From assembly GCA_005884665.1 (NCBI GenBank), contig VBAT01000037.1:76233-140232 (forward strand): a stretch of 64,000 bases of DNA, read 5' to 3'. Origin of the DNA: Bacteroidota bacterium (GTDB lineage Bacteria > Bacteroidota > Bacteroidia > Chitinophagales > Chitinophagaceae). The number at the start of each line of letters is the position of its first letter. Positions within the stretch are counted from its first letter, which is position 1. Shown in pieces: positions 5,429-15,930 of the stretch. The translations under genes were made by a program, and so were the position numbers. The notes under the pieces were generated by a model that was given only the letters and a program-made list of their open reading frames with translations, ran no database searches and was not told the DNA's origin.

Positions 5429-6157
5429 ATGGAACAAACAGGGAAAGTTTACCTGATCCCTTCCCTGCTCGATGAGAATGGGGTGGAAGCTGTGCCATTG
5501 TATATCCTGGACGCCGTAAAAAATTGCCAGGTATTGTTCGTGGAAAATGAAAGAACAGCCAGGCGGTACCTGAAGCAATTGTGGAAAGCCCGCTTGCCGG
5601 GAGAACAAATAATTATTGATGATTTTGAATGGTTTGCTATCGATAAAGCCGAGCAGCAAGTTCAAATCATTTTCAGATCGAAACTTAAGGAAGGAAAGAA
5701 CATAGGCATTATCAGCGAAGCCGGCTGCCCGGGTATTGCCGATCCCGGTCAGCTATTGGTTGCAGCGGCGCAGGGAATGAATGCAACAATTCAACCATTG
5801 GTCGGGCCCAGTTCCATCCTGCTGGCATTGATGGCGAGCGGGCTTAACGGCCAACAATTTCAATTCGTGGGATACTTGCCGATAGAAAATGTACAAAGAG
5901 CAAAAGCTATAAAGGACCTGGAAGCCGAATCGCAACAAAGGAATTGCACGCAACTATTTATCGAAACGCCTTACCGGAATAACCAACTCATCGAAGCTTT
6001 ATTGAAAACGTGCAGGCCTTCGACAAAACTTTGCATCGCTGTTGATCTGACGGGGAAGAATGAATGGATCCGGACGAAAACGATTGCTGACTGGAAAAAA
6101 GAGAAAATTGATATCCATAAACGACCTGCCCTCTTTCTCATCCATACTTATCACTGA
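5429..6157 (+). CDS. SAM-dependent methyltransferase, RsmI/tetrapyrrole-methylase family
   Basis: A 242-residue member of the tetrapyrrole (corrin/porphyrin) methylase fold, in the branch that includes RsmI, which 2'-O-methylates C1402 of 16S rRNA. Visible motifs are VEALPLYILD-like material at the N-terminus, LFVENERTARRYL, IGIISEAGCPGIADPGQ (the SAM-loop region), GPSSILLALMASGLNGQQFQFVGYLP and LFIETPYRN. It is shorter than E. coli RsmI (286), a form often seen in Bacteroidota alongside a full-length RsmI, so the target may differ. It is coupled to the EI24 gene upstream and overlaps the convergent next gene by 7 bases. Confidence 0.82.
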   Translation: MEQTGKVYLIPSLLDENGVEAVPLYILDAVKNCQVLFVENERTARRYLKQLWKARLPGEQIIIDDFEWFAIDKAEQQVQIIFRSKLKEGKNIGIISEAGCPGIADPGQLLVAAAQGMNATIQPLVGPSSILLALMASGLNGQQFQFVGYLPIENVQRAKAIKDLEAESQQRNCTQLFIETPYRNNQLIEALLKTCRPSTKLCIAVDLTGKNEWIRTKTIADWKKEKIDIHKRPALFLIHTYH

Positions 6158-6567
6158 TAACCGGCCCGGATCGGAGCTACTCCCGTAACAATATATTTAT
6201 TATCTCCCCGCCAGGGCAACGAGTTTCGGTATTGGACATAATCGACTTGCACACATTCGTCCTGGAGAGTTTTTAATACATTGGCCAGGCTGTCATTGGT
6301 AACAGAAAAATAAAATTTTTCAGGGTTTACCGTCTGCCGGCAGCTCAGCCACATCTCTCCTTCATCAGTTTTAAAAATATTTCCCCGGTGGGTAATTTTG
6401 ATCAGTGTACCTTTTCTTTCCCCATAAGCGTACTTGTTATAGAAGAACCAGTAAATGGCAAAAGCGCCCAACAGCACGATGGCTATTAACATATTTCTGA
6501 AAAAACGCCCCGCTCCGCCGGAGAAGGACTTTTTTCCCCTAACCTCTGTTCGTTTCATCTCATCCAT
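6151..6567 (-). CDS. conserved hypothetical single-pass membrane protein
   Basis: 138 residues: a basic N-terminus, one transmembrane helix (MLIAIVLLGAFAIYWFFYNKYAYG, about residues 26-49), then a soluble domain of about 85 residues with no catalytic motif that I recognise. GTLIKITHRGNIFKTDEGEMWL looks like a beta-rich SH3/OB-like fold. Topology suggests an inner-membrane anchor with the domain on the periplasmic side. Related proteins occur widely in Bacteroidota, but I know of no tested function. It converges on the methylase gene and its 5' side abuts the arginine promoter region. Confidence 0.7.
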   Translation of the reverse strand: MDEMKRTEVRGKKSFSGGAGRFFRNMLIAIVLLGAFAIYWFFYNKYAYGERKGTLIKITHRGNIFKTDEGEMWLSCRQTVNPEKFYFSVTNDSLANVLKTLQDECVQVDYVQYRNSLPWRGDNKYIVTGVAPIRAGYQ

Positions 6568-6589
6568 ATCATTTTTTTATAACAAAAAA

Positions 6590-6624
6590 TTTGTCAGGCT
6601 AAATCAATTATTATTATACATTTG
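6590..6624 (+). promoter_or_regulatory. Bacteroidota promoter for the arginine operon
   Basis: TTTG at 6590-6593 and TACATTTG at 6617-6624 fit the TTG...TAnnTTTG promoter of Bacteroidota with a 23-base spacer, at the long end of the accepted range. Transcription would start near 6631, about 20 bases before the leader ORF. Confidence 0.6.
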
Positions 6625-6649
6625 TACCCAATTTACATTGTTTGTAAAT

Positions 6650-6775
6650 ATGAACAACAGCCTGACACATACAAAACAATTCGCCTTCCATGCGCCCATC
6701 ACCAGTGGCGTGTATGCGGTTGGATTTGATGTGTTCACCTTTTCTCCCCGCCCGCGACGCAGGCCTGTGTGCTGA
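6650..6775 (+). CDS. putative arginine leader peptide (41 aa)
   Basis: A short ORF beginning at ATG 6650 and ending at TGA 6773-6775. Its last residues are SPRPRRRPVC: four arginine codons (CGC 6749, CGA 6755, CGC 6758, AGG 6761) lie within six codons, just before the stop. It sits between a good promoter and the first arginine-biosynthesis gene. The hairpins at 6764-6807 begin at the codon after the last arginine codon, the geometry of a ribosome-stalling attenuator. The N-terminal part has no function I recognise. The call rests on codon content and position, not on a known family. Confidence 0.6.
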   Translation: MNNSLTHTKQFAFHAPITSGVYAVGFDVFTFSPRPRRRPVC

Positions 6776-6807
6776 CAGGACAAACCCCCGACCATGGCCC
6801 CTGTCAG
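6764..6807 (+). promoter_or_regulatory. alternative hairpins, candidate arginine attenuator
   Basis: CTGACAGG (6772-6779) is perfectly complementary to CCTGTCAG (6800-6807). The same CAGG side can instead pair upstream, ACAGG (6775-6779) with CCTGT (6764-6768). The two structures exclude each other, and the upstream arm overlaps the end of the leader ORF. A ribosome paused on the arginine codons would cover the upstream arm and favour the downstream hairpin. No U-tract terminator was seen between 6807 and the start codon at 6868, so control could be translational or Rho-dependent. Confidence 0.5.
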
Positions 6808-6867
6808 TGAACTATCCCCAAAAAACCGTTTTGAACTGGTCGTTCCATATTCAAATAATTTTTCAAA

Positions 6868-7590
6868 GTGGACAATCAACAAATCATTATCAGGGTAGCG
6901 ACTCCGAATGATAAAATCTACTCGAAGATAATTACCGAAGAAATGGAAGCCTCGGCAAAAGCCCGCGGCACAGGTATCGCTAAACGTTCCCCTGAATATA
7001 TTGAACAGAAGATCGATGAAGGCAAGGCTGTCATCGCCGTAACCGGTGATGACAAATGGGTTGGATTTTGCTATATTGAAACCTGGAGCCATGGTGAATA
7101 TGTCGCTAACTCCGGATTGATCGTAGCCCCTGAATACAGGAAAGGAGGCGTTGCCAAAGACATCAAGAAAAAAATATTCAACCTCTCGCGGGAAAAATAT
7201 CCTAGCGCAAAGATCTTCGGGCTGACTACCGGGCTGGCTGTAATGAAGATCAACTCTGATCTCGGCTATGAACCGGTTACTTACTCTGAGCTTACCCAGG
7301 ACGAAGCTTTCTGGTCTGGTTGTAAGAGCTGCGTGAACTACGAAATCCTCATGAGCAAGGAAAGAAAGAATTGTATGTGCACAGCCATGCTCTATGACCC
7401 AAAGGATCACTACGAACCGGAAGAAACCAAAGAATTTTTCAAAGAGAAATCAAAGGGATTGGAACGGTTGCTCCGCCTCAAGGAATGGAAATTTTTCAAG
7501 GCCTTCACCAAAAGAGACAAGCAAGGGAATGACAACAATTCAGGTGGTGGCGGAAAGCTCAGGTCCATATTCCATTTTTTCCATCTCTAA
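6868..7590 (+). CDS. GNAT acetyltransferase of the arginine cluster, probable N-acyl-glutamate synthase
   Basis: A 240-residue GNAT-fold protein with the acetyl-CoA loop visible as VAPEYRKGGVAKDIKKKI (about residues 87-104). It begins the arginine operon, in the position of the missing argA, and is 15 bases before argG. By position it most likely makes N-acetyl- (or N-succinyl-) glutamate, the first step; the sequence alone does not show the substrate. A cysteine-rich stretch (GCKSCVNYEI and NCMCTAM, residues about 151-173) and a charged C-terminal tail are unusual for a minimal GNAT. The start is GTG at 6868, chosen because it gives DNQQIIIRVATPND at the first beta-strand. Confidence 0.78.
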   Translation: MDNQQIIIRVATPNDKIYSKIITEEMEASAKARGTGIAKRSPEYIEQKIDEGKAVIAVTGDDKWVGFCYIETWSHGEYVANSGLIVAPEYRKGGVAKDIKKKIFNLSREKYPSAKIFGLTTGLAVMKINSDLGYEPVTYSELTQDEAFWSGCKSCVNYEILMSKERKNCMCTAMLYDPKDHYEPEETKEFFKEKSKGLERLLRLKEWKFFKAFTKRDKQGNDNNSGGGGKLRSIFHFFHL

Positions 7591-7605
7591 ATTGCGGAAC
7601 AAAAA

Positions 7606-8814
7606 ATGTCAAAAAAGGTAGTACTGGGGTTTAGTGGCGGGCTCGACACGTCTTTTTGTGTGAAATATCTTACTGAAGATCTTGGGTATGAAGTGCATAG
7701 CATTATTGTAAATACCGGCGGGTTTACAGAAGAAGAATTGAAGAATATCGAAGCTCATGCCTACAAACTGGGCGTAAAATTCCACAAGGCAGTAAATGCG
7801 GTAAAGAGCTATTATGACAGTATCATTAAATACCTCGTTTACGGGAATATTTTAAAGAATAATACTTATCCTCTTAGCGTGAGCGCAGAAAGGCTTAGCC
7901 AGGCCCTGCACATAGCCGATCACGTTATCGAATTAAATGCCGAAGCGGTAGCACATGGCAGTACCGGTGCAGGTAACGACCAGGTAAGGTTCGATATGAT
8001 ATTTAATATTATGATCCCCGGTGTGGAGATCCTTACTCCTATTCGCGATTTGAAACTCAGCCGTGAACAGGAGATCGAATACCTGAAGGGTAAAGGAGTC
8101 GGGATGAATTTCGAAAAATCGATGTATTCGATCAATAAAGGCTTGTGGGGAACGAGTGTAGGAGGCAAAGAAACCCTTTCATCAAAAGGCATGTTGCCCG
8201 AAGAAGCGTGGCCGACACAAGCTACAAAGACCGGCAGTGAAGAAGTGAAATTACATTTTGAAAAAGGCGAGCTAAAGAAAGTAAATGACCGGTCGCTTTA
8301 TCATCCCACGGATTCAATTCAATACTTACAAACCATTGCGGGTCCTTATGGTATTGGCCGCGATATCCATGTTGGCGATACGATCATTGGAATAAAAGGA
8401 AGAGTTGGCTTTGAAGCAGCGGCGCCAATGGTAATTCTAAAAGCGCATCATGCGTTGGAAAAACATGTGTTGACCAAATGGCAGTTGACCTTAAAGGACC
8501 AATTGGCACAATTTTATGGCAATTGGCTACATGAAGGACAAATTCTGGATCCAGCCATGAGAGATATCGAGGCTTTCCTGGAAAATTCGCAAAGAAACGT
8601 AACGGGAGATGTATTTGTACAATTATATCCTTATCGTTTCCAGGTTACCGGAATAGAATCGCCATATGATCTGATGAGTAGTAAATTTGGGAAATATGGT
8701 GAAATGAATAGTGGATGGACGGGAGAAGATGTTAGAGGGTTTAGTAAGATATTTGGTAATCAAACCATGATCTATCACCAGGTAAAGGATGCAGCCGGGC
8801 CCAAAAAGCCCTGA
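7606..8814 (+). CDS. argG: argininosuccinate synthase
   Basis: ATP-dependent ligase joining citrulline and aspartate, penultimate step of arginine synthesis. 402 residues, normal length. The ATP-binding P-loop of the N-type ATP pyrophosphatase fold is at the N-terminus (VLGFSGGLDTSFCVKYL); GSTGAGNDQVRFD (about residues 118-130) and SINKGLWGTSVGGKE are also family signatures. ATG start at 7606. It is followed by a 28-base gap holding a 14-base palindrome, CTTATCGCGATAAG (8820-8833), and then argC. Confidence 0.96.
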   Translation: MSKKVVLGFSGGLDTSFCVKYLTEDLGYEVHSIIVNTGGFTEEELKNIEAHAYKLGVKFHKAVNAVKSYYDSIIKYLVYGNILKNNTYPLSVSAERLSQALHIADHVIELNAEAVAHGSTGAGNDQVRFDMIFNIMIPGVEILTPIRDLKLSREQEIEYLKGKGVGMNFEKSMYSINKGLWGTSVGGKETLSSKGMLPEEAWPTQATKTGSEEVKLHFEKGELKKVNDRSLYHPTDSIQYLQTIAGPYGIGRDIHVGDTIIGIKGRVGFEAAAPMVILKAHHALEKHVLTKWQLTLKDQLAQFYGNWLHEGQILDPAMRDIEAFLENSQRNVTGDVFVQLYPYRFQVTGIESPYDLMSSKFGKYGEMNSGWTGEDVRGFSKIFGNQTMIYHQVKDAAGPKKP

Positions 8815-8842
8815 AGCGTCTTATCGCGATAAGTTTATTATA

Positions 8843-9853
8843 ATGCAATCAAAAAAAACACATTCTTCAAATAAACAACTCGTAAAGGTTGGTATAATAG
8901 GTGGAGCAGGTTATACCGGTGGCGAATTAATACGTTTATTGATCCATCACCCGTATACAGCTGTTTCTTTTATTCATAGCCGTAGCAATGCTGGCAAACC
9001 CATTCACTCAGTTCACCAGGATCTGCTGGGTGATACTGACCTGGCTTTTACAGATAAATTGTCCGACAAGATAGATGTGCTCTTTCTTTGCCTGGGACAC
9101 GGCGAGTCAAAAAAATTTTTATCGGAGAACAAGATCGCAGAAAAAATAAAGATCATTGATCTTGCCAATGATTTTCGGTTAAAGCAACAATCCAAATTGG
9201 GAAAACGGCAGTTTGTTTATGGATTACCGGAGATCAACCGGGAGCAGATCAGGTCTGCAAACAATATTGCAAACCCGGGTTGCTTTGCAACGTCTATACA
9301 GCTGGGATTATTACCCCTGGCAAATGCAGGGTTGCTCGATGAAATATATACGACTGGTATTACCGGGTCGACAGGAGCGGGTCAGGGCCTGGCTACCACT
9401 TCGCATTTCAGCTGGCGTGCAAATAATATCCAGGCATATAAAACTCTTACCCACCAACATCTGGGGGAAATTGGTGAATCGTTGTTACAACTCCAGCCAA
9501 AAACCAAGATTGAGCTCAGCTTTGTTCCCTGGAGAGGGGATTTTACAAGAGGGATCTTTGCCAGTTCGACTGTTCATTGTGAAGAGACAATGGAAGAGCT
9601 AACAAAGCTTTATGAACAGTTCTATAAGGATCATGCGTTCACTAATGTCAGCAAAGATTCGATCTTTTTAAAACAGGTTGTCAATACAAACAAGGCTGTA
9701 GTGCAACTGGAAAAAGCCGGTAGCAAACTGGTTGTTCATTCCGCTATCGATAATTTATTGAAAGGCGCAAGCGGGCAGGCGGTACAGAATATGAATTTGA
9801 TGTTTGGATTGGACGAGTGCGCTGGATTGAATTTGAAAGCGACAGCATTTTGA
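8843..9853 (+). CDS. argC: N-acetyl-gamma-glutamyl-phosphate reductase
   Basis: NADPH-dependent reductase of the acylated glutamyl-phosphate in arginine synthesis. The Rossmann motif is VGIIGGAGYTGGELIRLL near residue 13, and the catalytic cysteine is in NIANPGCFATSIQLGLLPL. GSTGAGQGLATTSHFSWRANN and the C-terminal NLLKGASGQAVQNMNLMFG are also diagnostic. The ATG at 8843 is chosen over the in-frame ATG at 8789 because the latter overlaps argG by 26 bases and adds an unconserved extension. About 336 residues, normal length. If the pathway runs through succinylated intermediates, as in Bacteroides, it would act on the succinyl form. Confidence 0.94.
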   Translation: MQSKKTHSSNKQLVKVGIIGGAGYTGGELIRLLIHHPYTAVSFIHSRSNAGKPIHSVHQDLLGDTDLAFTDKLSDKIDVLFLCLGHGESKKFLSENKIAEKIKIIDLANDFRLKQQSKLGKRQFVYGLPEINREQIRSANNIANPGCFATSIQLGLLPLANAGLLDEIYTTGITGSTGAGQGLATTSHFSWRANNIQAYKTLTHQHLGEIGESLLQLQPKTKIELSFVPWRGDFTRGIFASSTVHCEETMEELTKLYEQFYKDHAFTNVSKDSIFLKQVVNTNKAVVQLEKAGSKLVVHSAIDNLLKGASGQAVQNMNLMFGLDECAGLNLKATAF

Positions 9854-9933: not shown

Positions 9934-11082
9934 ATGAACTTATTCGACGTTTACCCTATCAATGACATCACCATCGTAAAAGCTAAAGGATCCTATGTGT
10001 GGGACGATAAAGGTGAGCAATACCTGGATCTCTATGGTGGTCATGCGGTGATCAGCATTGGACACACCCACCCTCATTGGGTGAAACGGATAGAAGACCA
10101 GATAGAAAAAATTGCCTTTTATTCCAACTCAATAAAAATCCCCCTGCAAAAAGAGCTCTCTGATAAACTCGGAAAGATATCGGGGAAAAGCGATTACCAG
10201 CTCTTTCTTTGCAATTCAGGTGCTGAAGCGAATGAAAATGCGTTAAAGTTGGCCAGTTTTCATAACGGCAGAAAAAAGATCGTCGCGTTCAACAAATCCT
10301 TTCATGGACGTACATCCCTCGCTGTAGCGGCTACGGACAATAAGAATTACGTGGCTCCGGTGAATGAAACAGACAATGTGGTCTTTCTTCCTTTAAACGA
10401 TGAAGATGCATTGCAGGAATGTTTTGAGGAAATGGGAAAAGAAATTTCCAGCGTTATTGTTGAAGGTATCCAGGGAGTCGGTGGTATCAATGTGACGGAA
10501 GAATCTTTCCTCAAAAAGATCAGGAGTCTATGCGATAAATATGGGGCGGTCTATATCGCTGACAGTGTTCAATGTGGTTATGGAAGAACCGGGAAATTCT
10601 TCAGCCATGATTTTGCAGGGGTAAATGCCGATATCTACACTATGGCAAAAGGCATGGGCAATGGATTTCCAGTAGCAGGGATCATTATTTCGCCGCATAT
10701 CAAACCCAAACATTTCATGCTGGGCACTACGTTTGGTGGCAATCATCTTGCCTGCGCAGCTGCACTGGCAGTGCTCGAAGTGATAGAAGAAGAAAAACTC
10801 ATGGGCAACGCCGTAATGGTTGGAAAATATCTCAGGGACCAGTTGGAAGAAATACCTGAATTGAAAAACGTGAGAGGCAAGGGGCTCATGATCGGTTTCG
10901 ATGTGCCCGAGGAATTAAAAGACCTTAAGAAAAACCTGTTGTGGAACCAGAAGATCTTCACCGGTGAAGCAAAACCCAACGTGATCCGGTTATTGCCGTC
11001 GCTTGGATTAAAGAAAAGGGATGCGGAGCAATTCATAGATGCGATAAAAGAGGAGATAGAAAAGGTAACTGAACGAGTATAA
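9934..11082 (+). CDS. argD: acetylornithine aminotransferase (class III PLP)
   Basis: PLP-dependent transaminase producing N-acyl-ornithine. 382 residues. Visible motifs are LYGGHAVISIGHTHP, the LCNSGAEANENALKLA cofactor loop (about residues 91-106), FHGRTSLAVAAT, IADSVQCGYGRTGKFF with the PLP-ring aspartate, and MAKGMGNGFPVAGII containing the Schiff-base lysine. The N-terminus MNLFDVYPINDITIVKAKGSY is the usual start. A 66-base gap follows before argF'. Confidence 0.93.
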   Translation: MNLFDVYPINDITIVKAKGSYVWDDKGEQYLDLYGGHAVISIGHTHPHWVKRIEDQIEKIAFYSNSIKIPLQKELSDKLGKISGKSDYQLFLCNSGAEANENALKLASFHNGRKKIVAFNKSFHGRTSLAVAATDNKNYVAPVNETDNVVFLPLNDEDALQECFEEMGKEISSVIVEGIQGVGGINVTEESFLKKIRSLCDKYGAVYIADSVQCGYGRTGKFFSHDFAGVNADIYTMAKGMGNGFPVAGIIISPHIKPKHFMLGTTFGGNHLACAAALAVLEVIEEEKLMGNAVMVGKYLRDQLEEIPELKNVRGKGLMIGFDVPEELKDLKKNLLWNQKIFTGEAKPNVIRLLPSLGLKKRDAEQFIDAIKEEIEKVTERV

Positions 11083-11148
11083 AACCGGTGCCAGATGTTC
11101 GGTGGCGGGTGAAAGGTGTGCTGCTGGCTTTATACTTCAGCAATAAAA

Positions 11149-12155
11149 ATGAAACAATTCATTTCCGTTAATGACGTCACGGGTTCCACCCCTGGTGAGG
11201 GCATTGATGCCCTTGTACAAAAGGCATTGGCCTATAAGGCTGATCCTTTTAAGGATAAGTCTCTTGGCACTAACAAAAGGGTGGGTTGCCTGTTCTGAAC
11301 CCGAGCATGCGTACGAGGCTCAGTACCCAGTTAGGTGCGCAGAACCTGGGAATGGATGCAATCATTTTCAATGTTGGCAGTGAAGGTTGGGCCCTGGAAT
11401 TTGAGGAAGAAGCGATCATGAGTGGAAGTACGGTCGAACATGTCAAGGATGCTGCTCCGGTCATGGGAAAATATTTTGACATCCTTGCAATCCGAACCTT
11501 TCCCTCCCTGAAAAACCGTGAAGATGATTACAGTGAACTTTTCATCAAACAATTTATTAAATACGCCGGGGTCCCCGTGGTCAGCCTGGAAAGCGCTACG
11601 CTTCATCCCCTGCAATCCCTGACGGATATAATTACGATCACGGAAGAAATCCGAAACCCAGGTCCCGATAGCAATCGGGATCTGCTATCGGGACGAAAAC
11701 CGAAGATAGTTCTTACGTGGGCGCCACATGTGAAGCCCTTGCCACAATGTGTCGCCAATAGTTTCTCCCAGTGGATCAACAAATGGGGCAAAGCTGATTT
11801 CGTGATCACCCACCCGGAAGATTATGAATTAAATGAGGAGTTTACCCGCGGAGCCACTATCACGCACGACCAGGACGAAGCACTAAAGGATGCCGACTTC
11901 GTATATGTAAAAAACTGGAGTACTTATACTGACTATGGTAAGATCTATTGCAATGATCCGGAGTGGATGCTTACCAACGAAAAATTACAGCAAAGTAATA
12001 ATGCTAAGGTAATGCATTGCCTGCCAGTAAGAAGAAATGTGGAATTGAGCGATGAGATACTGGATGGCCCTAACAGCCTTGTAACACAGGAAGCAGCCAA
12101 CCGGGTATGGGCAGCGCAGGCAGTATTGTCTGAAATCCTGAAGCCGACGCTATAA
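11149..12155 (+). CDS. argF': N-acetyl/N-succinylornithine carbamoyltransferase, frameshifted as sequenced
   Basis: Carbamoylates acylated ornithine in the Bacteroidota version of arginine synthesis. The frame starting at ATG 11149 (MKQFISVNDV) runs to TGA 11296-11298; the conserved continuation NPSMRTRLSTQLGAQNLGMDA is in another frame. Adding one C near 11295 (TTC CTG AAC) restores GCLFLNPSMRTRLS, so one base appears lost from a CC run. The rest is intact: the SMRTR carbamoyl-phosphate motif, MHCLPVRRNVELSDEIL at the active site, and a normal end overlapping argB by one base. An extra 12-14 residues near PGPDSNRDLLSGR are encoded by a palindrome. Acetyl versus succinyl specificity cannot be read with confidence. 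Confidence 0.85.
11662..11694 (+). repeat. palindromic element inserted in-frame in argF'
   Basis: GTCCCGATAGC (11662-11672) and GCTATCGGGAC (11684-11694) are perfect 11-base inverted arms around an 11-base centre; a nested pair CCCGAT/ATCGGG lies inside. It is translated as GPDSNRDLLSGR between ITEEIRN and KPKIVLTWAPH. My memory of related transcarbamylases has only a few residues there, so it reads as a small dispersed palindrome that entered the coding sequence without breaking the frame. Confidence 0.6.
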
Positions 12156-12940
12156 TGAACAAGCTACTTGTAATAAAGATCGGTGGTAATATTATTGACG
12201 ATGAGACCAGGCTTTCATCGTTCCTGCGGGATTTTGCAAAGATCAAAGACAGGAAAATACTGGTCCACGGCGGAGGCAAGCTGGCAACTGATCTATCAGC
12301 CAAATTGGGAATAGCGCAAAAATTAGTGGAAGGAAGAAGGATAACCGATGCAGAGACATTGAAAATCGTGACAATGGTGTATGCAGGATACATTAATAAA
12401 AATGTCGTCGCAGGACTGCAGGCTAATCACTGCAACGCGATAGGCCTTTGCGGAGCAGACGGTGATGCGATCCTGGCACATAAAAGAAATCACCCGGTTG
12501 TTGACTATGGCTTTGTCGGGGATATTGACAGGATCAATACTTCTTTGATAAAAAACTTGCTGGAGCAGAATATTGCAGTGGTGTTTGCTCCTATTACCCA
12601 CGATCAACAGGGCCAGTTATTAAACACAAATGCCGACACGATTGCACAGGAACTGGCCAAGGGAATGAGCAAGGAATATGACGTGAGTCTTATCTATTCG
12701 TTTGAAAAAAGCGGTGTGTTGCTGGATGCGGGCGATGACTCAACCGTAATTTCAAAGATCACAGCCGGTTATTTTCAGGAGTTAAAGGCCCAGCAAAAGA
12801 TATTCGCAGGCATGATCCCTAAATTAGATAACGCGTTTGCCGCGCTAAATGCCGGGGTAAAGAAAGTGATCATCGGTAAGGCGGAAGAATTAAATAAGCT
12901 GGTCAGCAGCCAGGCCGGAACAGCAATTGTCAATGAATAG
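12155..12940 (+). CDS. argB: acetylglutamate kinase
   Basis: Amino-acid kinase family member that phosphorylates N-acyl-glutamate. 261 residues. The N-terminal nucleotide-binding strand is LLVIKIGGNIID, followed by LVHGGGKLATDLSAKLG (substrate-binding glycine loop, about residues 36-52), GRRITDAETLKIV, and the NTNADTIAQELAKGM segment near residue 155. The A of its ATG is the last base of the argF' stop codon, and its 3' end overlaps argE by 14 bases, so the three genes are translationally coupled. The enzyme has no N-terminal arginine-sensing helix of the type found in feedback-inhibited hexameric kinases. Confidence 0.93.
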   Translation: MNKLLVIKIGGNIIDDETRLSSFLRDFAKIKDRKILVHGGGKLATDLSAKLGIAQKLVEGRRITDAETLKIVTMVYAGYINKNVVAGLQANHCNAIGLCGADGDAILAHKRNHPVVDYGFVGDIDRINTSLIKNLLEQNIAVVFAPITHDQQGQLLNTNADTIAQELAKGMSKEYDVSLIYSFEKSGVLLDAGDDSTVISKITAGYFQELKAQQKIFAGMIPKLDNAFAALNAGVKKVIIGKAEELNKLVSSQAGTAIVNE

Positions 12941-14009
12941 TGATTCAATCCATAATCTGCAGGAGGAAGCCATTGGCTTATTAAAAAAGCTGATTGCCAC
13001 GCCCTCATTCAGCCGCGAGGAAGATAAGACCTCGGAAATACTGGAAGGATTTTTTATGGAAAGAAATATTCCTGCAAAAAAATACCTGTACAATGTTTGG
13101 GCGACAAATAAACATTTTGATACCACAAGGCCTACTTTGTTGCTGAATTCGCATCACGATACGGTAAAACCCAATTCACAATATACCAGGGATCCTTTTA
13201 AACCGGTTATCGAAGATGGGAAATTATACGGCCTTGGTAGCAACGATGCAGGCGGTTCGCTGGTCTCGCTGATTGCAGCTTTTCTCTATTTCTATGACAA
13301 AGAAACCCTGAAATATAACCTCGTACTCGCAGCTTCGGCCGAAGAAGAGATCTCTGGCGCCAATGGCATTGAAGTATTGTTGAATCAACTGGGCGATATC
13401 GATTGTGCCATAGTCGGCGAGCCCACGCAGATGCAGATGGCTGTTGCAGAAAGAGGATTGATGGTCCTGGATTGCATTGCAAAGGGAAAAGCAGGTCATG
13501 CCGCCAGGAAGGAAGGTGATAACGCTATCTACAAAGCTATAAAAGACATCAACTGGTTCACTTCTTATAAATTTCCAAAGGTTTCAGAACTGCTGGGACC
13601 GGTCAATATGGATATATCGGTAATTGAAACCGACAACAAAGCTCACAATGTAGTGCCTGCGCAATGTAAATTTGTCGTTGACGTCAGGGTGAATGAATGC
13701 TATACATTTGAAGAAGTGTTTGAAACCATCAGCCAGAATATTCAAAGTGAACCCAAGGCAAGAAGCTTCAGGCTTCGTTCTACATCTATCGCGAAAGATC
13801 ATCCCCTGGTTAAAGCGGGGCTGGAATTGGGAAGGAGTGGTTATGGTTCCCCGACGACATCCGACAAGGCCCTGATGTTTTTTCCCTCGCTGAAAATGGG
13901 TCCCGGGGATTCCGGCCGCAGCCATTCGGCAGACGAGTATATTTTTGTAGATGAAATAAAGGAAGGAATTGAATTGTATATTGCCCTGTTGAAAAAAGTC
14001 TTGTTATAG
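12927..14009 (+). CDS. argE: M20-family deacylase, acetylornithine deacetylase type
   Basis: Zinc-dependent M20 hydrolase, 360 residues, by context removing the acyl group from acetyl- or succinyl-ornithine/citrulline. Metal ligands are visible in LLLNSHHDTVKPN (about residue 75), GLGSNDAGGSLVSL (bridging aspartate), ASAEEEISGANGIE (catalytic Glu pair) and GPGDSGRSHSADEYIFVDE at the C-terminus. The dimerisation domain in the middle carries GKAGHAARKEGDNAIYKAI. In Bacteroidota that carbamoylate before deacylating, this step yields citrulline, which argG then uses. It starts inside the 3' end of argB. Confidence 0.88.
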   Translation: MSMNSDSIHNLQEEAIGLLKKLIATPSFSREEDKTSEILEGFFMERNIPAKKYLYNVWATNKHFDTTRPTLLLNSHHDTVKPNSQYTRDPFKPVIEDGKLYGLGSNDAGGSLVSLIAAFLYFYDKETLKYNLVLAASAEEEISGANGIEVLLNQLGDIDCAIVGEPTQMQMAVAERGLMVLDCIAKGKAGHAARKEGDNAIYKAIKDINWFTSYKFPKVSELLGPVNMDISVIETDNKAHNVVPAQCKFVVDVRVNECYTFEEVFETISQNIQSEPKARSFRLRSTSIAKDHPLVKAGLELGRSGYGSPTTSDKALMFFPSLKMGPGDSGRSHSADEYIFVDEIKEGIELYIALLKKVLL

Positions 14010-14624: not shown

Positions 14625-15930
14625 ATGAAACTCTGGCACAAAGACAAGACCTCATTAAAACAGGTTGAAGAATTTACCGTTGGGAACGACAGGGAAATGG
14701 ATCTCTATTTGGCGGCATTTGATGTATTAGGTTCACTTGCACATGTGCAGATGTTGCAGACAATTGGGCTGATCACCAAAAACGAACTGCCCCGCTTGCA
14801 AACCGAACTAAAAAAGATCTACAATGAGATTGAAGAAGGAAATTTTAACCTGCAGGACGATGTCGAGGATATTCATTCGCAAATAGAGCTGCTGCTTACA
14901 CAGCGGCTTGGTGATGTCGGAAAAAGAATTCATTCAGCCCGTAGCCGGAACGACCAGGTATTGCTGGACATAAAACTTTTTCTAAGAAACGAAATAGAAC
15001 AGCTGGTAAAATCGATCCGCCCTTTCTTCGATTTATTGCAATCGCAAAGCGAGAGATACCAGGAATATTCATTACCAGGTTATACGCATTTACAACTGGC
15101 TATGCCTTCCTCTTTTGGACTTTGGTTCGGAGCGTATGCAGAAAGCCTGGTAGATGATGTGATCACGTTGAAAGCAGGCTATGATTAAAAATCCTCTCGG
15201 CTCGGCCGCCGGCTACGGGTCTTCTTTTCCAATCAACAGGACCATGACCACCAAACTGCTCGGTTTTGACGATCTGAATTATAATGTTGTTTATGCACAG
15301 ATGGGAAGAGGAAAAGCAGAACGGATAGTTGCAGCAGCCCTGGCCAACGTAGCCGATACACTGGCTAAATTATCCATGGATGCCTGTTTATACCTTAATC
15401 AGAATTTTGGTTTTATCAGTTTCCCGGCCGAATTGACCACTGGCAGCAGCATCATGCCACATAAAAAAAACCCGGACGTATTTGAATTGATCCGCTCCCA
15501 TTGCAATCGCATTAAAGCCCTGCCTAACGAGATTATGCTGATGACAACCAACCTGCCTTCCGGTTATCATCGAGATCTCCAGTTGATAAAGGAGCATTTG
15601 TTCCCTGCTTTTAAAACGCTAAAGAATTGCATGGAAATGGCCGGGTTGATGCTTTCAAACGTTGAAATAAAAAAAGATATCCTGGCCGATGAAAGCGTGG
15701 AAGAAGTGAACAGGCTTGTTTTGCAGGGAATGCCTTTCCGGGATGCCTATAAAAAAGTAGGTATGGACATCGAGACAGGTAATTTCTCCTATAGCACCCA
15801 GCTAAATCATACCCACGAAGGAAGTATCGGCTACCTGGCAACGGAAGAAATAAAAAGACAGATGCTGGAGGCTATTGAATCATTTCCTTTCAAGAAAGTT
15901 CATAGCGCAATCAGCAGCCTGCTGAAGTAG
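14625..15930 (+). CDS. argH: argininosuccinate lyase, frameshifted as sequenced
   Basis: Final arginine step, cleaving argininosuccinate to arginine and fumarate. The first frame (14625) carries VEDIHSQIE, IHSARSRNDQVLLDIKLFLR and PGYTHLQLAMPSSFGLWFG, then stops at TAA 15186-15188. The rest continues in the next frame from about 15181, NPLGSAAGYGSSFPINR, and includes the superfamily signature GSSIMPHKKNPDVFE with the catalytic serine loop. Homologues have YxxxNxNPLGSAAGYGSSFP; a few bases seem to be missing between TATGAT and AAAAATCCT (the shift would fit a loss of 2 or 8 bases). No other damage was seen, so it is either a recent mutation or a sequence error. Confidence 0.85.

Follow-up and report, generated by a model that had tools for sequence, protein, structure and literature searches.

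The window, by which we mean the whole stretch of 64,000 nt analyzed here, covers positions 76,233-140,232 (forward strand) of contig VBAT01000037.1 in assembly GCA_005884665.1, from a Bacteroidota bacterium of the Chitinophagaceae. The assembly is a draft (5.7 Mb, 124 contigs, rated 94% complete), and comparison of the first gene of the cluster described here places its nearest named relatives among Chitinophagaceae and unclassified Bacteroidota assemblies. A short leader ORF lies between a promoter and an arginine biosynthesis cluster (Table 1). A sequence-only reading had proposed a promoter, a 41-codon ORF with Arg codons, two mutually exclusive hairpins, and a 92-base gap between the leader stop and the first gene; all of these held, with a GTG start at 6868, and all coordinates were confirmed.

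Table 1. Features of the leader region and the arginine cluster, in window positions.
Feature	Position	Strand	Basis
Promoter, Bacteroidota type, TTG-N23-TACATTTG (TTG-N23-TAnnTTTG)	6591-6624	+	sequence
Leader ORF, 41 codons, C-terminus SPRPRRRPVC*, stop UGA 6773-6775	6650-6775	+	homologous leaders in relatives
Arg codon cluster CGC-CCG-CGA-CGC-AGG	6749-6763	+	sequence, comparison
Small alternative hairpin, CCUGU 6764-6768 with ACAGG 6775-6779	6764-6779	+	sequence
Hairpin P1, CUGACAGG 6772-6779 (holds the stop) with CCUGUCAG 6800-6807	6772-6807	+	comparison
Short inner stem of P1	6785-6786 with 6796-6797	+	comparison
Pseudoknot helix, CGACCA 6789-6794 with UGGUCG 6837-6842	6789-6842	+	covariation
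First cluster gene, GNAT-type acetyltransferase, GTG start 6868	6868-7590	+	PF00583 just over cut-off
argG	7606-8814	+	argininosuccinate synthase models, under curated cut-offs
argC, true start probably 3' of 8789	8789-9853	+	TIGR01850 above cut-off
argD-like transaminase	9934-11082	+	model match under cut-off
argF', N-acetylornithine-type carbamoyltransferase, two frames	11116-12155	+	second piece scanned, under cut-off
argB	12155-12940	+	TIGR00761 above cut-off
argE-like deacylase	12927-14009	+	model match under cut-off
argH, two frames	14625-15930	+	first piece scanned, under cut-off

Two cluster genes are split between frames, the carbamoyltransferase gene (11116-11298 and 11286-12155, overlapping at 11286-11298) and argH (14625-15188 and 15181-15930, overlapping at 15181-15188). 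Assembly or sequencing errors in the draft are the simplest reading of both. Leader, hairpin, and first gene occur a second time in the assembly, on another contig (locus L002, contig C31, 3274 bases), in a copy that is 75% identical and has internal stops in the first gene; it probably comes from a contaminating relative.

The promoter at 6591-6624, of the Bacteroidota type, has counterparts in the family. TTG-N17-24-TAnnTTTG is found 5' of the leader tail at 31 of 141 family loci, compared with a mean of 2.2 in mononucleotide shuffles, and at none of the 141 between the tail and the gene. A spacer of 17-21 gave 4/141, and the range was widened to 17-24 after the window's own spacer, so the larger count is not a blind one.

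The four Arg codons of the leader (CGC 6749-6751, CGA 6755-6757, CGC 6758-6760, and AGG 6761-6763) stand at -8, -6, -5, and -4 relative to the stop, within the last nine codons as had been claimed. The peptide has no match in Pfam (up to E 1) or NCBIfam, nor, at the same Pfam limit, to the SpeFL/orf34 family PF10940 (number from PMC6386406). The tail, on the other hand, can be followed through the family. The first gene is present in 155 of 195 family genomes, and upstream regions were collected from 148 of these and from the second copy in the window's own assembly (n = 149). A frame with at least three Arg among its last ten codons is found in 124 of the 149 regions, as against 1-9 in ten dinucleotide shuffles and five in the reverse complement; the next amino acid by the same count is Leu (28 regions), with none higher apart from Arg. 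Frames were counted stop-to-stop if they had at least 20 codons and a stop 60-170 nt before the gene start; no start codon was required, and the gene start was set at the base where the aligned match begins, which can lie up to ~50 bases inside the gene.

The tails fall into three types, set by pattern: G1 (stop then YAGG; RPRRRPVC, PRPRRGC), G2 (RR.R. ending; RRPRI-like), and G3 (RR ending after V, L or AV; VRVRR-like). These cover 141 of the 149 regions (58, 51, and 32, respectively) and all 80 named loci of another collection with overlapping organisms (65, 5, and 10). Terrimonas ferruginea and Niabella drilacis are among the named species with a G1 leader. Because the types are defined by pattern, RR is a given in G2 and G3, as is the 5' arm of P1 in G1; independent of the definitions are the CGA codon, the 3' arm of P1, and the pseudoknot. 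No type fits the remaining eight regions, although four of them (L123, L127, L146, and L148) have an RR-ending frame. Fewer than three Arg in the last ten codons are seen in 13 of 58 family G1 leaders, 7 of 32 G3 leaders, and 11 of 65 named G1 leaders. Pooling the 58 and 65 G1 loci, whose organisms overlap, gives 123 loci, of which 106 are distinct and 87 remain at <90% similarity; two of the 87 (L143 and L144) have type-2-like endings and lack the P1 pattern. In G3 leaders such as L055, L058, and L098, in-frame GGG-(G/T)TT-TTT and GTT-TTT are kept even at third positions, from which we infer an additional constraint of unknown kind.

The tails are selective not just for arginine. CGA makes up 7.5% of the 717 Arg codons in 38 long ORFs of the window, but 211 of the 417 Arg codons in the 124 tails chosen by Arg count alone; 119 of these tails hold a CGA, and in 117 the CGA is followed by another Arg codon. 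In the window leader this conserved pair is CGA-CGC (6755-6760). For a column-wise view the codon sets were thinned to 95, 47, and 38 leaders (from 123, 56, and 42 for G1, G2, and G3). CGA-CGA is present in 47/47 thinned G2 leaders without third-base variation, and the Pro and Arg codons 3' of it vary synonymously. CGA is found in 37/38 thinned G3 leaders, with an adjacent CGT in 37/38, and in 80/94 thinned G1 leaders, followed by CGT or CGC in 78/94. CGA, as opposed to just Arg, lies outside the type definitions and is constant all the same, which indicates that the codon is kept beyond the amino acid. A programmed frameshift at the CGA pair was considered and rejected: in the close relatives L004, L006, and L009 the +1 frame closes 16 nt past the stop.

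The tRNA complement offers a setting for this codon choice. All 44 tRNA places in the assembly were typed with ARAGORN. The Arg anticodons are TCT, CCT, ACG, and CCG, and TCG is absent among the 44 places of this 94% complete assembly; hence CGA is decoded by the ACG tRNA. The ACG anticodon is modified to inosine and is a poor reader of CGA. Support for poor reading of CGA comes from Salmonella, where CGA-containing Arg pairs also relieve his attenuation (PMC4046918), and CGA-CGA pairs are poorly read in yeast (PMC6301793). Rare and frequent Arg codons are equally effective in the speF leader of Salmonella (PMC6386406), a result that by analogy would speak against any need for CGA.

The two hairpins both use 6775-6779 and are thus mutually exclusive. 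Of the two, P1 is general in G1: each of its positions pairs in 86-87 of the 87 non-redundant sequences, with exchanges among C-G, U-A, and U-G at one pair and between G-C and A-U in the inner stem. In the window itself an A stands opposite a C at the covarying inner pair. As G1 was selected by the 5' arm of P1 (stop then YAGG), the test is independent for the 3' arm only. The small hairpin, put forward earlier as a feature of the leader, is limited to a subset (CCUG 5' of the stop in 37/87 G1 sequences). The Pro codon at -3 is CCT in 43 of the 46 G1 leaders with Pro there; that at -7 is CCC in 24, CCG in 23, CCA in 18, and CCT in two.

The pseudoknot between the loop of P1 and a strand further downstream was missed by the earlier reading. 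The base beside its ACC/UGGU core pairs in 43 of 65 sequences, versus 26.8 expected (0 of 5000 permutations), with C-G, G-C, U-A, and A-U all observed; the next base outward is uninformative (57/65 versus 53.0 expected). Of 85 sequences, 79 either have both the loop ACC and the downstream UGG or lack both. When loop and downstream strand were swapped among the 65 loci with both motifs, the signal was modest (13.42 for own pairs, a mean of 12.83 for swapped ones, 2 of 200 as high). An alignment of 31 sequences, made up of 30 of the 65 named G1 loci and the window, excludes loci without the UGGU pattern by design. In it 96% of cells pair, and all of the P1 cells do, compared with 23-40% in slid controls; two-sided changes number 17 cells versus 5.5 in shuffles (0 of 500 as high) and fall on four pairs versus 2.2 (15 of 500 as high), counts that are inflated by the relatedness of the sequences. 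Bases outside the helices are almost invariant, UGAA after P1 for example. UGGU ends 27 nt 5' of the first gene. It was also tried as the loop of a hairpin, GGAY-UGGU-N-RUCC. The outer two pairs of this hairpin form in 61/65 and 63/65 sequences and the inner two in only 39/65 and 30/65; since only the outer pairs are common, we read UGGU as a strand of the pseudoknot. Comparison thus shows that G1 leaders form P1 over their stop codon together with a pseudoknot.

Folding adds little to this. The leader RNA folded alone is unexceptional (z -1.08), so the structural evidence is comparative; stop-to-gene folds give weak median z values (-0.74 for G1, -0.95 for G2, and -1.21 for G3), and an Rfam search of 6000-8000 in the window found no match up to E 1. 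The RNAalifold consensus for G2 and G3 has next to no structure. Pairing of the stop codon exceeds shuffles at 97% of 58 G1, 24% of 51 G2, 3% of 32 G3, and 13% of 30 other-family loci. It is convincing in G1 alone, and the RNA half of the model set out below therefore covers one type. An alternative pairing in G3, CAUAG/CUAUG, was noticed by eye.

A covariance model built from the 31 sequences, the window included, finds 31 matches in 30 of 98 family genomes, one per genome except in the window's own assembly, where the second, diverged copy on a 3.3-kb contig is also found; all 31 lie just 5' of the first gene. A search of 198 genomes of the class gave two matches, both in the window's own family, and none in the 194 others. 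With 43 (family) or 21 (class) candidates scored per genome under strict filters, weak copies may have been missed. When homologous clusters were checked for a conserved ORF or hairpin, as the earlier reading had called for, the Arg-tailed frame was found to be conserved, the stop hairpin to covary in G1, and the matches all to lie at the cluster.

Arg tails are not confined to the family. The first gene matches in 71 of the 198 class genomes; four of these belong to the window's own family, one weak match (genome G238) was left out, and five with ArgR were set apart. The remaining 61 regions, from 24 families and from genomes without an ArgR match, were searched with a stop window of 60-200 nt. 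At least three Arg in the tail are found in 30 of the 61 (0-6 in 20 shuffles, seven in the reverse complement, 14 for Leu), and at least four in 16 (0-1, one, and three, respectively). Arg tails occur in 17 of the 24 ArgR-less families, and seven families have none. The commonest Arg codon in these outside tails is AGG (40/116), with CGA at 26/116, so the strong preference for CGA is a trait of the window's own family. By eye, seven loci in other families (L169, L170, L176, L263, L268, L277, and L287) have a small hairpin with a UACGY/UAYGY loop (e.g., CC-UACGC-GG) in the interval between leader and gene, and in L169 and L176 a GCGUA directly 3' of the stop could pair with such a loop.

The arginine repressor is nearly missing from this picture. 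ArgR (PF02863) has no match in the window's own genome (94% complete) and one in 98 family genomes, a borderline one (25 bits, at the cut-off) in family member G004; it is found in nine of 198 class genomes. As a positive control, the same search gives matches in eight of 14 named genomes, Bacteroides ihuae among them. ArgR and the GNAT gene occur together in six class genomes, and in five of these ArgR lies directly 5' of the GNAT gene, which means that repressor gene and leader share the same place. The best tails of the five regions with ArgR adjoining the gene hold 0, 1, 2, 3, and 2 Arg. The sixth genome is that of G004, in which the match, to the C-terminal part of ArgR, lies far off (C1:4849371-4849505, L151) and has an internal stop; it may not be functional.

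In the leaders closest to that of the window (HTKQFAFHAPITSGVYAVGFDVFTF...; 61 'HTK' leaders of type G1, thinned to 47 non-redundant ones), the peptide body is itself conserved. Diversity over the 25-codon body is 0.13/0.12/0.53 at codon positions 1/2/3, and pN/pS is 0.19, or 0.23 without the five selecting codons (HTK, GV); the last nine codons give a pS of 0.46 and a pN of 0.34. HTK and GV are invariant because leaders were picked by them, and the other invariant residues are F, Y, V, and D, at one position each. This codon-position pattern is that of a translated frame and shows selection at the peptide level in the 'HTK' subgroup. For whole types peptide conservation is weak (pN/pS pairs of 0.41/0.65 in G1, 0.44/0.65 in G2, and 0.42/0.47 in G3), and peptide selection is therefore not general. 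A conserved body is more than a plain codon counter needs, which counts against a simple leader model.

How the leader acts on the operon is less clear. The sequence-only reading had seen no U-tract terminator, and that holds for the window: no terminator-like site was found on the + strand of 6500-7000. With G-U pairs allowed, a setting at which the script recovers the his terminator of the same genome, there is no excess in G1 (4/58; shuffles 2-5). The window leader is accordingly not classed as a terminator-based attenuator of the classical kind, and the output step is a guess, given that no intrinsic terminator is seen in the window and G1 has no excess of them. Sites exceed shuffles in G2 (7/51 versus 0-2) and G3 (9/32 versus 1-2), so that intrinsic termination is possible there and the output may differ between types. 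Terminator-like hairpins lie between leader and gene at G2/G3 loci such as L046, L055, L084, and L131, and some of these could be genuine. The C/G ratio from stop to gene is 1.48 in G1, 1.25 in G2, and 1.39 in G3 (upstream control, 1.06).

Ahead of hisG, this genome encodes a leader with a run of His (MIINTHIHHHHLTH...). This His leader, MIINTHIHHHHLTHAVSCDGIM (locus L352, contig C72, ~1224-1340, 5' of hisG), has a U-tract terminator-like hairpin at 1316-1339 and, by eye, a competing GGTAAGC/GCTTACC pair. It appears, then, that the organism uses the textbook form elsewhere and that the arginine leader differs from it.

On balance we favor, with moderate confidence, a ribosome-controlled, arginine-responsive leader of the arginine cluster, a reading in which the arginine response and the output are inferred and for which there are no expression data. 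In this reading the promoter at 6591-6624 would transcribe a short ORF with a slow CGA-Arg pair near its end. A shortage of charged arginine tRNA would make the ribosome pause at that pair, a few codons before the stop, and leave the 5' arm of P1 largely uncovered; the pseudoknot would form beside the ribosome, and the operon would be expressed. With arginine plentiful, a ribosome at the stop would sit on the 5' arm of P1, no pseudoknot would form, and expression would drop, probably because Rho stops transcription within the C-rich RNA that separates leader from gene, or else because the first gene is less well translated or its transcript less stable. In the family, where ArgR is nearly absent, the leader would substitute for this repressor.

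The geometry of this proposal rests on the reach of the ribosome. A ribosome covers ~12 nt beyond the first base of the A-site codon, and footprints extend up to 12 nt downstream (PMC4833913). Paused at 6755, it would end at ~6767 and leave the P1 arm at 6772-6779 free, while at the stop it would cover the arm; from this we infer that P1 and the pseudoknot can form on a pause only. That starvation switches the operon on is an assumption drawn from the pathway. It also counts against the model that a ribosome paused on the last Arg codons, which stand close to the stop, would partly cover P1; in G3, where 30 of 32 leaders have CGA a single codon ahead of the stop, a paused ribosome would cover the P1-equivalent place entirely.

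Among the alternatives, the one with most in its favor, though we think it unlikely, is that of an arrest peptide, in which the nascent chain itself stalls the ribosome, perhaps with the exit tunnel as the site where arginine or some other metabolite is sensed. Fungal AAP and SpeFL act as arrest peptides. The conserved body of the 47 'HTK' leaders fits such a role, and by inference the conserved stretch would fill the tunnel while the Arg codons are decoded. Against this, conservation of the body is weak outside the 'HTK' subgroup, Arg tails persist with other bodies in other families, and a kept third base of CGA would not be expected if the amino acid alone mattered.

The remaining explanations fare worse. 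It is very unlikely that the pseudoknot is a riboswitch-like RNA that binds a ligand or protein, with the ORF secondary: the near-invariant bases outside the helices speak for it, but Rfam offers no match up to E 1 and Arg-tailed frames are kept in types and families where the RNA element is not seen. Also very unlikely is a role of the 41-residue peptide in trans, as a small protein. Peptide-level selection in the nearest relatives could be read that way; the divergent body, the constant Arg tail, the fixed place before the cluster, and the lack of Pfam and NCBIfam matches speak against it. A chance ORF in a GC-rich stretch, with which the unexceptional fold of the whole leader would agree, is all but ruled out, as it is contradicted by the shuffle controls, the covariation, and the codon-position pattern.

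The favored reading, a ribosome-controlled leader, places this locus among known systems. Like trp- and his-type attenuators, the window leader has a short ORF with codons for the end product before a biosynthetic operon and an RNA pairing that a ribosome can block; it differs from the His leader of its own genome in that no terminator-like U-tract hairpin is seen and a pseudoknot lies over its own stop instead. The Salmonella speF leader (orf34/SpeFL) likewise senses arginine with paired Arg codons in a leader ORF and has alternative RNA structures, with Rho involved (PMC6386406); unlike the leader described here, it controls ornithine decarboxylase, has its Arg pair at codons 12-13, and is indifferent to codon rarity, whereas the window type keeps CGA. 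rbfL of Staphylococcus aureus also uses rare Arg codons to sense arginine limitation, but it is an eight-residue leader that overlaps a biofilm regulator's ribosome-binding site and represses this regulator at low arginine (PMC13009471). The fungal arginine attenuator peptide (the term is used in PMC3130931) is, as here, an arginine-linked leader with a conserved peptide before an arginine biosynthetic gene; unlike the window leader, it is eukaryotic, stalls at its own stop when arginine is high, and is not known to have a C-terminal Arg run.

The earlier proposal of arginine-dependent attenuation is therefore supported by comparison, with the arginine response itself still an inference. Its statement that such control is not known in Bacteroidota can hold for arginine only, since clues of leader-peptide attenuation before amino-acid operons, with the amino acids unnamed, come from Flavobacterium psychrophilum (PMC9723704). 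For Bacteroidota, the largely open-access literature searched gave no earlier description of an arginine leader ahead of an arginine operon; most subscription papers, supplements, and the 2010 comparative survey of attenuation by Lopatovskaya and colleagues were outside the scope of that search. The leader is real, conserved, and tied to the arginine cluster wherever it is found, and we infer that it regulates as a variant of known leader-peptide control.

A bolder reading is possible, though less likely than not, in which these elements act jointly. The CGA-Arg pair, read by an ACG (inosine) tRNA, would be a built-in slow site, a tunnel-filling peptide would strengthen the pause, and the stop-codon pseudoknot would be the switch, the whole replacing ArgR in the Chitinophagaceae, with Arg-tailed leaders of other designs doing so in other ArgR-less Bacteroidia. 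If the favored reading is true, many members of a bacterial class would control arginine synthesis through ribosomes reading Arg codons and not through ArgR, and these leaders would provide a natural setting in which to ask whether a poorly read CGA is selected as a starvation sensor and how an operon is switched without an intrinsic terminator, by way of a pseudoknot on the leader's own stop.
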